From Alteromonas sp. LMIT006 (lineage in GTDB: Bacteria > Pseudomonadota > Gammaproteobacteria > Enterobacterales > Alteromonadaceae), in the NCBI RefSeq assembly GCF_024300645.1, contig NZ_CP101291.1:868001-932000 (forward strand): 64,000 nt of DNA, written 5' to 3'. A model generated the notes under the pieces. The model was not told the origin of the DNA and made no database searches. It saw only the letters and a list, made by a program, of their open reading frames with translations. Shown here piece by piece: positions 3,547 through 60,006 of this stretch. Each line of letters begins with the position of its first letter. The first letter of the stretch is position 1. Made by a program: the position numbers and the translations under genes.

Positions 3547-5052
3547 ATGCACATTCAAGTCGAAAAACGAAGCGCCAGTTTAGCACAAAAATTATTTCGC
3601 GCCGATCAAGTCTCACAACGTGAGGAGGAAGCCGCTGAGTTGAGTATGACAACGCTTTACGGGCTGATGCAACGTGCAGGGAAAGCGGTGTATGAAGCGT
3701 GTTTTGAACTTGTACCGAATTGCGAACATTTTTTGTTTGTGGTGGGTTCTGGGAATAATGCTGGGGATGGCTACGTCGCAGCAACACTTGCGTTAGAAGA
3801 CGAACACGATGTAAAAGTCGTTTCGGTGAATCCAGATAAAGCTCTGACTGGAGATGCGCTGAAAGCTCAAGAAGCGTTCCTAGCGGCCGGTGGCAAAGTT
3901 GTTGCGTTTAACGAATCATTGTTATCCCGTGCGGATATCATTGTTGATGCATTGTTTGGTATCGGGGTGCAAGGGTTGATTAGACAAGACTCTTTAGCCG
4001 TGATTAATGCCATTAATGAAGCGAAGGTTCCAGTCTTGAGTGTCGATGTGCCATCTGGACTAAACGCAACGACAGGGGTCGCCTTTTGTGGGTGTGTGCA
4101 AGCAGACATGACGGTCACTTTTGTCGGCATCAAACAAGGCTTGGTCACCGCAGCGGGCAAAGAAGCCTCGGGTATTTTAAAATTCGCCGATCTCGATGTG
4201 GGTAAAGCGTTTGCTGAAGTCTGTCCATCGAACACTCATTTACTTAATTTAGACCAGTTTGAAAAACTCGCTCCACGTCGGGTTAATTCTCACAAAGGTC
4301 GTTTCGGTCGCTTGCTGTGTATCGGTGGAAACGCCGGTATGTCAGGTGCGATCCGTTTAGCGGGTGAGGCAGCCCTTCGAGCTGGGACTGGATTAGTAAA
4401 AATCTATGCTCACCCAGATAGTCGTGTACAAATATCCGCAGGCAGACCTGAACTCATGGTGATCAGTGAAGCGCTAGAAGATGCGCTGGAATGGGCCAAT
4501 ACAATCGTTGTTGGGCCCGGCTTAGGTCAAGATGAGTGGGCTCAAGAAACATTTAAACAAGTCATAGAATATTTACAAAAGAAAGATCTGCCTGTTGTGT
4601 TAGATGCTGATGCGCTAAATATGTTACCGCAGCATGCAACGCGATTTTCACCAGCGGATTGTATTTTAACACCTCATACTGGCGAAGCAGCTCGCTTACT
4701 TGAGACGACCATCGAAGATGTAGACAGCTCTCGCTACAGCAATGCTAGATTATTAGCACAACGCTATGGGGTTGTGACTATTCTAAAAGGGCCAGGTACC
4801 ATCGTTGACAACGGCAAGCGTACTTGGGTCAGTGAACATGGCAACCCAGGCATGGCGACAGCAGGTATGGGCGATGTGTTAAGCGGGATTCTTGGCGCTT
4901 TGATGGCGCAGCGAATGAGTAACGTCGATGCAGCCAAATATGGCGTTTGTGTTCACGGACGGGCAGCTGATATAATTGCACATGAATATGGCGAGCGTGG
5001 CATGTTGGCAAGTGATATTTTTCCAGAGGTCAGGCGCTTAATTAACACTTAA
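3547..5052 (+). CDS. nnr: Bifunctional NAD(P)H-hydrate epimerase / dehydratase Nnr
   Basis: This enzyme repairs hydrated NADH and NADPH. The N-terminal YjeF_N epimerase domain (about residues 20-220) has GSGNNAGDGYVAA and VDALFGIG. The C-terminal carbohydrate-kinase-like dehydratase domain (about 230-500) has HKGRFGRLLCIGG, DADALN, LTPHTGEA and GNPGMATAGMGDVLSG. The protein is 501 residues, close to the 515 of E. coli. AAAGGA lies six bases before the ATG. It heads the nnr-tsaE-amiB-mutL-miaA-hfq-hflX-hflKC superoperon, which is conserved in gammaproteobacteria. Confidence 0.94.
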   Translation: MHIQVEKRSASLAQKLFRADQVSQREEEAAELSMTTLYGLMQRAGKAVYEACFELVPNCEHFLFVVGSGNNAGDGYVAATLALEDEHDVKVVSVNPDKALTGDALKAQEAFLAAGGKVVAFNESLLSRADIIVDALFGIGVQGLIRQDSLAVINAINEAKVPVLSVDVPSGLNATTGVAFCGCVQADMTVTFVGIKQGLVTAAGKEASGILKFADLDVGKAFAEVCPSNTHLLNLDQFEKLAPRRVNSHKGRFGRLLCIGGNAGMSGAIRLAGEAALRAGTGLVKIYAHPDSRVQISAGRPELMVISEALEDALEWANTIVVGPGLGQDEWAQETFKQVIEYLQKKDLPVVLDADALNMLPQHATRFSPADCILTPHTGEAARLLETTIEDVDSSRYSNARLLAQRYGVVTILKGPGTIVDNGKRTWVSEHGNPGMATAGMGDVLSGILGALMAQRMSNVDAAKYGVCVHGRAADIIAHEYGERGMLASDIFPEVRRLINT

Positions 5053-5561: not shown

Positions 5562-6869
5562 ATGCGACAGTTGAAAGTGTATGTGTTAGCAAGTGTCTTA
5601 TATTGGTGCTTTTGTCTGACCGCTATCGCGCAAACCACACTGTCAGATGCGACTCTCAAAACGACTTCCCAGGGCACGCGTATTGAGTTCTCATTTTCAG
5701 AGACGGTTAAACACTCCTACTTTACTTTGCAAAAGCCTTATCGGGTAGTCATTGATTTACCCAACACCCAAGGACAGTTTGCGACAATCACTGAACGAAA
5801 CTCAGATAGGCTGGTTCACAAAGTGCGAACGTCCAAACCCAAAAGAGCCTCTGATTTTCGTATTGTTATAGAAACTCGTAGCAAAGAGGATTTTACCCTT
5901 GGGTGGACTGGCACCACACTGTGGGTACAGTTTTCGGACCCTCCTCCTGCGGTACCTAAGTTATCTGTTGGTCAGCAACCAGACCGACCAACAGACATCA
6001 TTATCGCTTTGGATGCCGGTCACGGAGGCCGTGACCCGGGCTCAGTTGGTCCGACGGGCACCTATGAAAAGCATGTTGTATTATCGATTGCCAAGAAGGT
6101 CGCTGAGCGTATCGATGCAACTCCAGGGCTACGGGCCGTGTTAACTCGAACGGATGATTATTATATCAAGCCGTCAAAACGCCCCGAGATTGCAAGGCAA
6201 AAGATGGCGGATTTGTTGATATCAATTCATGCGGATGCGTTCACAACCCCTCAACCATCAGGTGCTTCGGTCTGGCTATTGAATAATCGTCGGGCTAATT
6301 CTGAGCTGGCAAAGTGGCTACGCAACACAGAAAAACATTCTGAATTACTCGGTGGTGCTGGCAAAATTTTGGAAGAAACGGAAGAAGATGAGTTTTTGAT
6401 GCGTACGTTGTTAGACATGCAGACTGAATCATCTCAGCAATCGAGTTATCAAATCAGCAAAAAAATGCTCTTAGAACTCAACAAAGTGACTAAACTTCAT
6501 AAAAAATCGCCACAACACGCGTCACTAGCAGTACTGACTGCACCGGATATTCCTTCGATCTTGGTTGAAGTGGGCTTTATTTCGAACCCTAGAGAAGAAA
6601 AAAACTTAAATTGGTCCGCTCATCGCGAACGTTTAGCGGGCTCAATTTATGACGGGATTGTAAAATATTTCCGCGTGTATCCGCCTGAAGGCACGCTGTG
6701 GGCGATGCAAAAAAACAACCAACCTGTAGAGCATCGTGTTGCCAGCGGCGAATCACTAACTCGCATTGCCCAACGTTATCGGGTCAGCGTGGGGGCAATC
6801 AAACAACACAATGGTCTAACATCGGATGTTATACGAGTCGGACAGCGCATTAAGATCCCTCAAGGATAA
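5562..6869 (+). CDS. amiB: N-acetylmuramoyl-L-alanine amidase AmiB, exported, with AMIN and LysM domains
   Basis: This periplasmic zinc amidase splits the septal cell wall during daughter-cell separation. The order is a signal peptide (hydrophobic stretch ending LTAIAQ), an AMIN targeting domain (about residues 25-125) and an Amidase_3 catalytic domain. The catalytic domain has [13 protein letters not shown], a zinc glutamate after TYEK, SIHADAF and the catalytic glutamate in [10 protein letters not shown]. One LysM peptidoglycan-binding repeat closes the protein. The ATG at 5562 is preferred. A GTG at 5550 in the same frame overlaps the tsaE stop and would add four residues. In E. coli, EnvC activates AmiB; no activator gene is visible here. 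Confidence 0.93.
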
Positions 6870-48855: not shown

Positions 48856-49230
48856 ATGGCTCTAACTAAAGATGATATCTTAAACGCGATTGCTGAAATG
48901 CCAGTTATGGAATTGGTAGAGTTAATCGAAGCAGCTGAAGAGAAATTCGGCGTAGAAGCTACTGCAGCAGTTGCTGTAGCAGCAGGTCCTGCTGCAGCTG
49001 CTGAAGCAGCTGAAGAGCAAACTGAATTTGACGTTGTCCTAGCGGGCATCGGTGGCAACAAAGTTGCTGTTATCAAAGCAGTTCGCGGCGCAACTGGCCT
49101 TGGCTTGAAAGAAGCTAAAGAGTTAGTTGAGTCTGCTCCAAAAGCAATCAAAGAAGGCGTAAGCAAAGAGGAAGCTGAAGAATTAGCGAACACTCTTAAA
49201 GAAGCTGGCGCTGAAGTTGAAGTTAAGTAA
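48856..49230 (+). CDS. rplL: 50S ribosomal protein L7/L12
   Basis: L7/L12 dimers recruit translation factors to the ribosome. The 124-residue protein has the N-terminal dimer region ([25 protein letters not shown]), an alanine-rich hinge (near residues 35-54) and the C-terminal factor-binding domain ([21 protein letters not shown]). CAGGAG precedes the ATG. The attenuator-type terminator before rpoB follows. Confidence 0.98.
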
Positions 49231-53478: not shown

Positions 53479-57659
<4,181 letters not shown>

Positions 57660-57674
57660 CATCGTTAGCAAAGC

Positions 57675-57711
57675 AATAAATATGAAACGCACCTTCGGGT
57701 GCGTTTTTTTT
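57675..57711 (+). terminator. rpoC terminator, copy 1 of a 37-base direct repeat
   Basis: AACGCACC (57686-57693), loop TTCG, GGTGCGTT (57698-57705) and a run of T residues form a strong terminator. The 37 bases from 57675 recur at 59390-59426 with one difference, in the loop (TTCG against TTTG). The two copies bracket an unusual two-gene cassette. Confidence 0.9.
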
Positions 57712-57733
57712 GGTAAATAACGAGGTATTCAAT

Positions 57734-57762
57734 TTGCAGTTTTATGAAAGCTTGTCTATAAC
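57734..57762 (+). promoter_or_regulatory. Promoter candidate of the two-gene cassette
   Basis: TTGCAG (57734-57739), a 17-base spacer and TATAAC (57757-57762). The start would lie about 33 bases before the ATG at 57802, inside the cassette, so it carries its own promoter. It lacks the GC-rich discriminator of the flanking ribosomal promoters. Confidence 0.55.
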
Positions 57763-57801
57763 TAGAATGTAATTGTTAATTTATTCAAAAAAAGGAAAAA
57801 A

Positions 57802-58261
57802 ATGAATAAAATCACTTTCCTTGCCTTGCCTTGCCTTGCTTAGCCTAATCTTCAGCTCTAGCTCATCAGCCCAGTTCGTTGCCTATGACGACTCCAACTA
57901 TTACTTAAGTCATTTGCATCAACAAAATATTTATTACCAGATAGATGGGAATAACGAAGGGTTCAATCAAAACTCAAGAGAATTAGAATTAACCTTAGGA
58001 GAAATTTGTCGCAAAAAAGCTAGGGAGAAGTGGCTAGAGTGCACAAAGCGTGTTAGCGGTGTTTTATTAAATTATACACTTTCAAACTCTGTAATGGCTT
58101 ACGGTGCTACATTAATGCTAACGGGCGTAGGAAGTGCTGTTGGTAGTACAATTGTTGCGTATGGTGCAATTATGACGGGAATTGGAGCTTATTACCACAG
58201 CATAGAAACAAAAAGATGTGATGTAGAAAAAGAAAATATGATAGACGGGTGTTCATCATGA
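57802..58261 (+). CDS. Exported glycine-zipper protein with a frame-breaking CCTTG repeat; possibly phase-variable
   Basis: ATG 57802 has AAGGA at 57792-57796, five bases upstream, but as written reads MNKITFLALPCLA and stops at 57841. The long frame (from TTG 57821 or any other entry) reads on to 58261. Adding one CCTTG unit to the four at 57819-57838 joins the two frames. The result is a complete signal peptide ending SSSSSA before QFVAYDD. The mature part (about 125 residues) has four cysteines (GEIC, LEC, KRC, DGC), a charged helix and a hydrophobic glycine-spaced segment (GATLMLTGVGSAVG, GAIMTGIGAYY) that could form a membrane hairpin. The TTG alone has no ribosome site. No family is recognised. 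An assembly slip is the main alternative. Confidence 0.65.
57819..57839 (+). repeat. Four tandem CCTTG units in a signal-peptide coding region
   Basis: CCTTG is repeated at 57819, 57824, 57829 and 57834, with one more matching base (57839). Reading-frame arithmetic: four units give a stop at 57841; five or two units would bring ATG 57802 into frame with the downstream gene. The location within the leader peptide resembles the CTCTT repeats of neisserial opa genes. Four units is a low number for rapid slippage. Confidence 0.75.
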
Positions 58262-59385
58262 TTAAATCAATAAACATTAGCCTCAAAAATATAATTATAG
58301 TCATTATGCTCCCATTACTGGTTCAAGCAGGCTTTGACATTTTCACTGAAATGGATGCGGCGCATTGGGATACTGGGCGGTATTTTATGGTTTTTGTAGG
58401 AGGCGTGTTTGTATATCTGACCTATGAAAGAATTAAACCCTTTAAAAGTGTTGTTGGAAAAATATGTTTGGAAGTTTTTTTTAAAAACCAAATCCTAATT
58501 ATTGTGATCATGATAAACGTAAGTAATTACATAAGGATGGCAAGCGATGTAAGTTACCATCAAACTGTTCAAGAACCAGATGTTGAAACTGCAAACTCTG
58601 CAAATACGAACACCTCAGGTTTAAATTCGCTGCCACAGTCAGAATTAACCGCCCCTAAAATCATGGAAAAGTCAGATCATGATGCAAAACGATTTTTAGC
58701 ATCCAACACTGTCAGTCAACTTCAATCATTCCATGAAAAAGTAAAAGCTGTAATGGCAAATAATAATGTAAGTACTCAATCTTTGACAAAAGAGCAAGAG
58801 ATGCATTTGATGAACATTGGTATGCAACTTGCCCAATATGCTCAGAGCAAACAATGGGAAGCGTTTGAAAAAGTAGTGCTGGCTGAATCTGGTGATGTTG
58901 ATACCTTAACAGCACTGACCAATGCAGCTATCGCATTAAGTGCGCCAGTTGATATGATCGAAAATTTTGTGAATCAAGGTGCGCAGATATTCCCTACCTC
59001 AACTTTACATGCACTTTCACAAGGAAGGATAGAGTTTGTAAAGCAGTTGGAGAATTTTGGTGTAAACCTAGTGGATGACTCGAGTGAGCTCCACGTACTA
59101 GATATGGCGATGATGATGCCGATGCCAGCAGAAAGTTTTGAGTTTTTGTTGGATAAGTCTTTTGATTTAATGTCATATAAACCCTCCATGGGTATCGACA
59201 CTCTAGGTATTGCTATTGTGAATGCGCCAATAAATCCAACAGCATCTCCACGAATCGTGCAATCTTTATTAACAAAAGGCGCGGAATTGAATAGTCATCA
59301 TATAGAACTATTGCAGAGATTATCTAAGGATAGGCCAGATATACACACAAAAATTGTAAAATTGTTACCAGTTCTGGGGACTTGA
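58258..59385 (+). CDS. Membrane protein with three N-terminal helices and ankyrin-like repeats, unrecognised
   Basis: The 375-residue product starts at ATG 58258, overlapping the previous stop by ATGA, so translation is probably coupled. Residues 11-26, 42-56 and about 78-92 are hydrophobic and likely span the membrane. Residues 95-150 form a polar linker (QEPDVETANSANTNTSG). From about 190 onward helical pairs resemble degenerate ankyrin repeats: APVDMIENFVNQGAQ, GRIEFVKQLENFGVNLV, ESFEFLLDKSFDL, RIVQSLLTKGAELN. A GTG at 58249 is also in frame. Base composition is AT-rich, unlike rpoC and rpsL. By analogy with other ankyrin-repeat neighbours it might protect against or anchor the first product, but there is no direct evidence. 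Confidence 0.72.
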   Translation: MIKSINISLKNIIIVIMLPLLVQAGFDIFTEMDAAHWDTGRYFMVFVGGVFVYLTYERIKPFKSVVGKICLEVFFKNQILIIVIMINVSNYIRMASDVSYHQTVQEPDVETANSANTNTSGLNSLPQSELTAPKIMEKSDHDAKRFLASNTVSQLQSFHEKVKAVMANNNVSTQSLTKEQEMHLMNIGMQLAQYAQSKQWEAFEKVVLAESGDVDTLTALTNAAIALSAPVDMIENFVNQGAQIFPTSTLHALSQGRIEFVKQLENFGVNLVDDSSELHVLDMAMMMPMPAESFEFLLDKSFDLMSYKPSMGIDTLGIAIVNAPINPTASPRIVQSLLTKGAELNSHHIELLQRLSKDRPDIHTKIVKLLPVLGT

Positions 59386-59389
59386 GTTT

Positions 59390-59426
59390 AATAAATATGA
59401 AACGCACCTTTGGGTGCGTTTTTTTT
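59390..59426 (+). terminator. Terminator, copy 2 of the 37-base direct repeat
   Basis: This matches 57675-57711 in 36 of 37 bases: AACGCACC, loop TTTG, GGTGCGTT and eight T residues. It follows the cassette's second gene by four bases. Confidence 0.9.
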
Positions 59427-59460
59427 CGTGTTGATAATCAGGTAAGGATGGTTAAACAAC

Positions 59461-59489
59461 TTGACTTTATTCTCATTCACCTTCATAAT
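59461..59489 (+). promoter_or_regulatory. Promoter of the rpsL-rpsG-fusA-tuf operon
   Basis: TTGACT (59461-59466), a 17-base spacer and CATAAT (59484-59489), followed by TTCGCGTCCTT. The discriminator GCGTCC is shared with the trpT and rplK promoters. The leader to rpsL is about 135 bases and holds no gene. Confidence 0.75.
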
Positions 59490-59628
59490 TTCGCGTCCTT
59501 AAATTAGGCGATGTTCTCGCTAAACCTTAAGAAAGACAGAGTTTTTGCTGGAATACGAGCATATTTCACAAAAACGACACGTTGGTAATGTATAAACATT
59601 GCCGTATTTTTATTTACTCAGGAGCTAG

Positions 59629-60006
<378 letters not shown>

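Follow-up and report, generated by a model that had tools for sequence, protein, structure and literature searches.

How can a gene whose start codon is followed within a few codons by a stop keep an open protein frame behind that stop? The question is raised by a pair of genes lying between rpoC (upstream) and rpsL (downstream; both named by eye from their translations) in a stretch of 64,000 nucleotides (nt) of the Alteromonas sp. LMIT006 genome (contig NZ_CP101291.1, positions 868,001 to 932,000), the whole of which is called the window here. In the first gene of the pair, a tandem array of the pentanucleotide CCTTG stands between the ribosome binding site with its ATG and a long reading frame. 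The answer that we regard as very probable is a slipped-strand phase switch. The array, situated in the leader-coding region, would change its length by slipped-strand mispairing, and since its unit length is not divisible by three, every change of a unit would shift the ATG into or out of register with the long frame, by which single cells would switch between making and not making the protein; the present assembly would show the off state. The pair would form a two-gene cassette. Its first gene would encode a small exported protein in which two cysteine pairs accompany a hydrophobic stretch rich in glycine, and its second a membrane protein that carries an ankyrin-like domain and most likely shields the producing cell. 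Such a pair would most likely be a bacteriocin-like toxin with its immunity protein, deployed by part of the cells, and this explanation as a whole, a phase-switched toxin/immunity cassette, is held with moderate confidence. Switching within a population is what we infer from the sequences.

The repeat, the two frames and the ribosome binding site that a first-pass annotation of the window had described are all present as stated (Table 1). That annotation had also calculated that five units, or two, would give one continuous protein, and the offset of one base between the short and the long frame, on which the calculation depends, was verified. Besides the perfect copies, Tandem Repeats Finder reports 5.0 imperfect CCTTG units starting at 57815. 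The array is not a chance product. No other perfect array with a unit of 4–12 nt, three or more copies, and a length of 15 nt or more occurs in the 264 kb of the genome that were scanned, comprising the window and ten 20-kb stretches, and the 15-mer made of three CCTTG units occurs at one place in the 2.53-Mb genome, which is this array. Arrays of 5-mers or 7-mers with at least 3.5 units did not arise in any of 60 first-order Markov simulations of 64 kb. A repeat unit that is not a multiple of three, placed within a coding region near its start, is one of the hallmarks of a contingency gene. Elsewhere in the window, imperfect tandem repeats of 9 and 15 nt lie at 48962–49015; their units are multiples of three, and they possibly represent a repetitive hinge in a coding region.

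The same arrangement was found in relatives. In genome sets drawn as samples from larger groups, with one assembly per species, five genomes carry a full-length core-type partner beside a core-type small gene, namely the window genome (G000), a Glaciecola sp. metagenome-assembled genome (G009, the same sequence as record JAAZVZ010000014.1), G004, G236, which belongs to another genus than the window, and G100. An array lies between the ribosome binding site with the ATG and the long frame in four of the five core small genes, with the units CCTTG in the window (4.2 copies) and G009 (6.8 copies), TCTTC in G004 (3.6 copies), and AATCAGC in G236 (9.1 copies), and the exact array patterns occur at no other place in the seven genomes searched. 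From the ATG to the anchor in the shared body, G009 is exactly 10 nt, or two units, longer than the window, and the unit number, which the first-pass annotation had proposed to compare among relatives, is therefore not a constant four with a conserved stop. The perfect array of G009 exceeds that of the window by more than 10 nt because a base change lengthens its left end. A whole-unit difference between close relatives is a further hallmark of contingency genes, here seen in one pair, and the window and G009 occupy the two different out-of-frame classes. All four array-bearing genes are out of frame with their own ATG. Their short frames run for 13 (window), 18 (G009), 14 (G004), and 29 codons (G236), with offsets of 1, 2, 2, and 2, and the long frames behind them are open for 151, 151, 157, and 186 codons, respectively. 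Switchability itself seems to be kept in the relatives, because three of them carry repeats of their own at the same place.

Comparison of the window with G009 revealed purifying selection on the long frame, with the gene out of frame in each of the two. Over the 70 codons from the array end to 58048, the non-synonymous divergence (dN) is 0.076 and the synonymous divergence (dS) is 0.304, giving a dN/dS of 0.25, with 7 synonymous and 10 non-synonymous codon differences and with 3, 4, and 15 substitutions at the first, second, and third codon positions (chi-square p 0.002). The diverged part of the small gene has the same dN/dS of 0.25 (19, 16, and 31 substitutions at the three positions), while the partner gives 0.40 in its N-terminal part and 0.61 in its C-terminal part (15 codon differences). 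A contingency gene would be expected to keep its protein sequence even where, as in these two assemblies, it is off, and a frame maintained by selection beyond the array is in this one genome pair a third hallmark of such genes. The two additional units in G009, the other arrays in G004 and G236, and the purifying selection on the long frame support the phase switch that the first-pass annotation had proposed, and the conditions which that annotation had named as refuting it fail. The partner gene, the mosaic and the family go beyond what the annotation described.

Other causes of the frame break have to be weighed against a slipped-strand switch. A fixed frameshift or a decaying pseudogene would fit the finding that all five core genes are out of frame and that a distant homologue in G169 breaks too, near a run of G. 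However, the long frames are still open in the four array-bearing loci, the breaks coincide with tandem arrays in four of the five core loci, and the low dN/dS is accompanied by an excess of third-position changes. A fixed dead frameshift does not account for purifying selection acting on the long frame while both genomes are out of frame, and decay is quite improbable. Translation could instead begin at a TTG inside the array, in which case the protein would be made at any unit number and the array would be only a repetitive leader. The sole ATG, GTG, or TTG codons of the long frame in the window ahead of the predicted mature part are indeed two in-array TTG codons (57821 and 57836), and three in-array TTG codons are found in G009; yet no ribosome binding site precedes them, and the leader would be without a charged N-terminus (by eye). 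In G004, most of the hydrophobic leader precedes the first such codon of the long frame, a GTG, and in G236 the first one lies wholly behind the leader. An internal start is therefore given a small chance. Programmed ribosomal frameshifting, which would connect both frames, is named for opa-type genes in E. coli in the title of a reference in PMC3960869, and leaky expression by this route is possible. It is set aside as very improbable, because the offset is not constant but differs between loci, being 1 in the window and 2 in G009, G004, and G236. An assembly or sequencing error in the array would be favored by the single assembly per species, and G runs like those in G100 and G169 are typical sites of sequencing errors. 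Such an error is hardly to be believed for the array, given that the window genome is a single contig, that the difference from G009 is an exact multiple of the unit, and that three unrelated arrays stand in four genomes.

Several observations nevertheless weigh against the phase switch. The first-pass annotation had suggested examining whether the family always carries the repeat, and this holds for four of the five core genes, with other units in G004 and G236, but not for the fifth, G100, whose frame breaks at a run of six G and which has no array, nor for the intact distant homologues, which have none either. Four units are few, and the array of G004 is shorter still. The probability that four of four genes are out of frame by chance is (2/3)^4 = 0.20, and therefore no selection for the off state is claimed. 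In addition, for the variable part of the small gene the codon-position test by itself gives weak evidence (p 0.057).

A clue to the putative function of the pair lies in the manner in which its two genes vary. Identity between the window and G009 is 97.7% at the end of rpoC, 95.0% over 57660–57802, 78.3% in the leader tail (57840–57900), and 96.6% over 57900–58049; it falls to 66.5% over 58049–58258 and 59.4% over 58258–58640, returns to 97.6% over 58640–59385, and is 67.5% in the right terminator region (59385–59480) and 99.2% over 59480–59720. The largest diverged block thus takes in the C-terminal half of the small protein together with the N-terminal membrane half of the partner, and a block across both genes is the pattern expected of a specificity swap in a toxin/immunity pair. 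Adjacent genes with co-varying specificity regions mark such pairs, and the block at 58049–58640 is an instance of this in one genome pair. A documented example of co-variation is provided by the ionophore toxins of contact-dependent growth inhibition (CDI) with their polymorphic immunity proteins (PMC11630599).

Table 1. Features of the switch locus and the gene pair in the window (positions counted from the first letter of the window).
Feature	Position	Strand	Remark
rpoC terminator region, left copy of the 40-nt direct repeat flanking the gene pair	57675..57714	+	
Ribosome binding site AAAGGA	57791..57796	+	Read from sequence; ATG 5 nt downstream
Short frame, ATG 57802, 13 codons, then TAG 57841	57802..57843	+	Out-of-frame state in this assembly
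Long frame, small exported protein (predicted)	57806..58261	+	Open 57806–58258, 151 codons, stop TGA 58259–58261
CCTTG tandem array, perfect, 4.2 units, within leader-coding region	57819..57839	+	Repeat search
Predicted mature part after SSSSSA	57872..58258	+	Cleavage site by eye
Largest diverged block against G009, C-terminal half of small protein and N-terminal membrane half of partner	58049..58640	+	
Partner gene, N-terminal hydrophobic segments and C-terminal part related to ankyrin-repeat proteins	58258..59385	+	
Second copy of rpoC terminator, 95% identical, right edge of inserted pair	59390..59429	+	

The small protein looks like an exported, glycine-rich protein with two cysteine pairs. 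A hydrophobic signal-like segment is encoded by or behind the array in the four array-bearing genes. In the window, the Cys codons at 58007, 58040, 58217, and 58250 form two C-x10-C pairs around a Gly-rich hydrophobic stretch. This stretch between the pairs is common to all five core small proteins, as is the spacing of the first pair, and the second pair has the x10 spacing in four of the five and x12 in G009. The partner adjoins the small gene in all five core loci. Its ATG overlaps the TGA of the small gene in the window, G009, G004, and G100 and does not in G236, and because start and stop overlap as ATGA, its translation is probably coupled to that of the small gene. The N-terminal hydrophobic segments number two in the window and three in three relatives, the C-terminal part is conserved, and Ank_2 was above the Pfam cut-off in two of the four distant partner homologues scanned. 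A second copy of the partner in G100 has no small exported gene upstream (L042, 4437–5423, minus strand) and resembles an orphan immunity gene.

Given the switch, a toxin/immunity role of the pair is considered plausible and somewhat more likely than not. The switch might also be real while the small protein is a surface or periplasmic one, for example, a phage- or grazer-facing antigen, which the partner anchors or folds. Phase-variable genes with leader repeats are mostly surface genes, and surface proteins can be mosaic too. The best known of these genes, opa, encodes a surface protein (PMC3960869), and no toxin family was found above cut-off in Pfam or NCBIfam. However, the diverged block extends across the gene boundary to take in the partner's membrane half, as co-varying specificity would, the second partner of G100 stands without a small gene, and ankyrin partners are a described immunity class (PMC3482391). 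A surface or periplasmic protein is thus rather unlikely, though it retains appreciable weight.

The toxin/immunity reading has evidence against it as well. The mosaic comes from one genome pair, with further divergence outside the block in the leader tail and in the right terminator region. No Pfam family was above the curated cut-off for the five core small proteins; the MccV family matched one of these five homologues below its cut-off (E 0.012; 16.6 bits against a cut-off of 27), the same homologue matched C19orf12 below cut-off (E 0.0028), and PDB profiles gave no match for the small protein. For the partner, no Pfam family was above cut-off in the five core-type partners scanned (that of G009 being left out), PDB profiles gave one ankyrin chain at E 0.62, and the ankyrin label of the window partner comes from its homologues. 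None of seven proteins scanned was above cut-off in NCBIfam, and PHROGs and PADLOC, with four proteins each, gave nothing at E 0.01. Membership in the Opa family was rejected for want of any Pfam family above cut-off in the five core small proteins, and membership in the class II microcins was rejected because the MccV match lies below the Pfam cut-off.

The pair is an accessory cassette, because the rpoC–rpsL gap is short in four matched genomes of the genus. A DNA search with the end of rpoC found matches in 6 of 10 genomes of the genus; the gap comparison rests on the matched genomes only, and the four unmatched ones carry no information. The gap is about 1970 nt in the window and G009, about 185–190 nt in G001, G002, and G006, and about 290 nt in G004, and the latter four genomes show the empty site. 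The two near-identical copies of the rpoC terminator that flank the pair may have offered a route of cassette insertion or exchange. The flanking copies of G009 are 94% identical over 35 nt, and those in locus L003 lie at 3845–3879 and 5567–5601. In two species of the genus, the pair is found at the edge of a ribosomal or transcription operon, between nusG and rplK in G004 (L008, 300–2900) and between rpoC and rpsL in the window (57659–59632), with the genes named by eye.

In the genome draws, the partner was matched more often than the small gene. The small protein of the window, used as a query, matched 2 of 98 genomes, G000 and G009, and among 38 candidate stretches from genome contigs, the single confirmed one is the G009 Glaciecola contig. 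Small-protein profiles matched 4 of 395 genomes of the family, missing G236; a second draw of 274 genomes gave six matches, two of them weak (G126 and G190; E about 0.004). For the partner profile, matches were found in 32 of the 395 family genomes, in 6 of 13 genomes in the genus of G236 (core type in G236 and G100), and in 14 of 394 in an order-level draw (core type in G000 and G100 only); the draws from this genus and the order added no further array-bearing loci. Of viral contigs, 11 stretches fitted a pattern and none was confirmed as a homologue, and no plasmid match to the partner was obtained.

Elsewhere in the family, the ankyrin part has homologues that follow longer proteins, which begin with a signal-like segment and contain several cysteines. 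The reading of distant loci covered 32 loci, 2 of the core type (L012 and L013) and 30 others, where L056 and L029 are one place, L052 corresponds to the second partner of G100, and L030 is not included; in 12 of the 32, less than 400 nt of DNA precedes the partner frame and the upstream gene is out of view. Cysteine-containing open reading frames (ORFs) with a signal-like start (by eye) were found in L014, L015, L016, L018, and L029/L056, and a separate small membrane ORF stands between the secreted-type and the ankyrin-type protein in L015, L016, and L018. The secreted-type protein of L018 matched no Pfam family at E 0.05. No visible leader is present in L023, L020 is truncated, and L028 is a piece cut by the locus end. 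Arrays of at least 3.5 units are absent from the distant-locus DNA read, and therefore, among the loci read, the switch is limited to the core group. As a separate observation, the start region and the body lie in different frames near G runs in L022 (about 690–800, five G, with a signal-like start) and L042 (7540–7570, six G), where a homopolymer switch, decay, or an assembly error may be involved.

Among known systems, the pair is placed by its presumed working, and not as a member, near opa, ankyrin immunity, and the glycine-zipper bacteriocins. In the opa genes of Neisseria (repeat CTCTT), as here, a pentameric repeat lies in the leader-coding region and the unit number sets the frame, turning an exported protein on or off (PMC3960869). 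The bacteria, the repeat, and the product differ, as Opa is an outer-membrane adhesin, the homologues here use 5-mers and a 7-mer, and slippage in living cells is here a prediction from sequence. The opa genes are also not known to have a paired partner gene. In polymorphic toxin systems with Imm-Ank proteins, the toxin adjoins an ankyrin-type partner and toxin modules are exchanged, as seems to be the case here (PMC3482391), and an ankyrin protein of self-protection, Bd3460, was characterised in Bdellovibrio (PMC4686830). Unlike those systems, the pair has no large delivery domain or known toxin domain, its partner has membrane segments, and its toxin role is putative. Caulobacter CdzC/CdzD and CdzI, which combine exported proteins that are small and rich in glycine with a small immunity protein of the membrane, are alike by description only; they differ in type I secretion and in the two bacteriocin proteins, and cysteine pairs and repeats are not mentioned in the available part of the source (PMC5380434). 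The MafB proteins of Neisseria, likewise compared by description only, are toxins that are secreted, have immunity partners, and come from a genus in which phase variation abounds; the available part of the source mentions phase variation for the capsule and not for the toxin (PMC4287609). The likeness to microcin V, a class II microcin, consists in a Gly-rich hydrophobic region with cysteines and in the sub-cut-off MccV match of one homologue. MccV has a double-glycine leader, whereas the leader here is signal-peptide-like.

Titles and abstract openings among the matches listed in an open-licence literature library named no comparable phase-variable gene. The best-known cases of repeat-driven switching are surface genes of host-adapted pathogens; here, the predicted switching would take place in Glaciecola-like bacteria (Alteromonadaceae) and act on a putative exported protein that has a dedicated membrane partner and no family match in the libraries tried. 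Because homologous genes carry different repeat units, the comparison suggests repeated selection for switchability itself. More tentatively, the locus may represent a stochastic weapon-and-immunity pair in which the switch has arisen with unrelated units (CCTTG, TCTTC, and AATCAGC) across species and genera, and in which the active half of the toxin and the membrane half of the immunity protein co-vary as one recombination block. If this is true, a population would contain both states, and its on cells would attack kin with a different allele. If the toxin/immunity role is true, the pair would exemplify interbacterial antagonism under phase variation and would allow a direct test of why only some cells make costly weapons.
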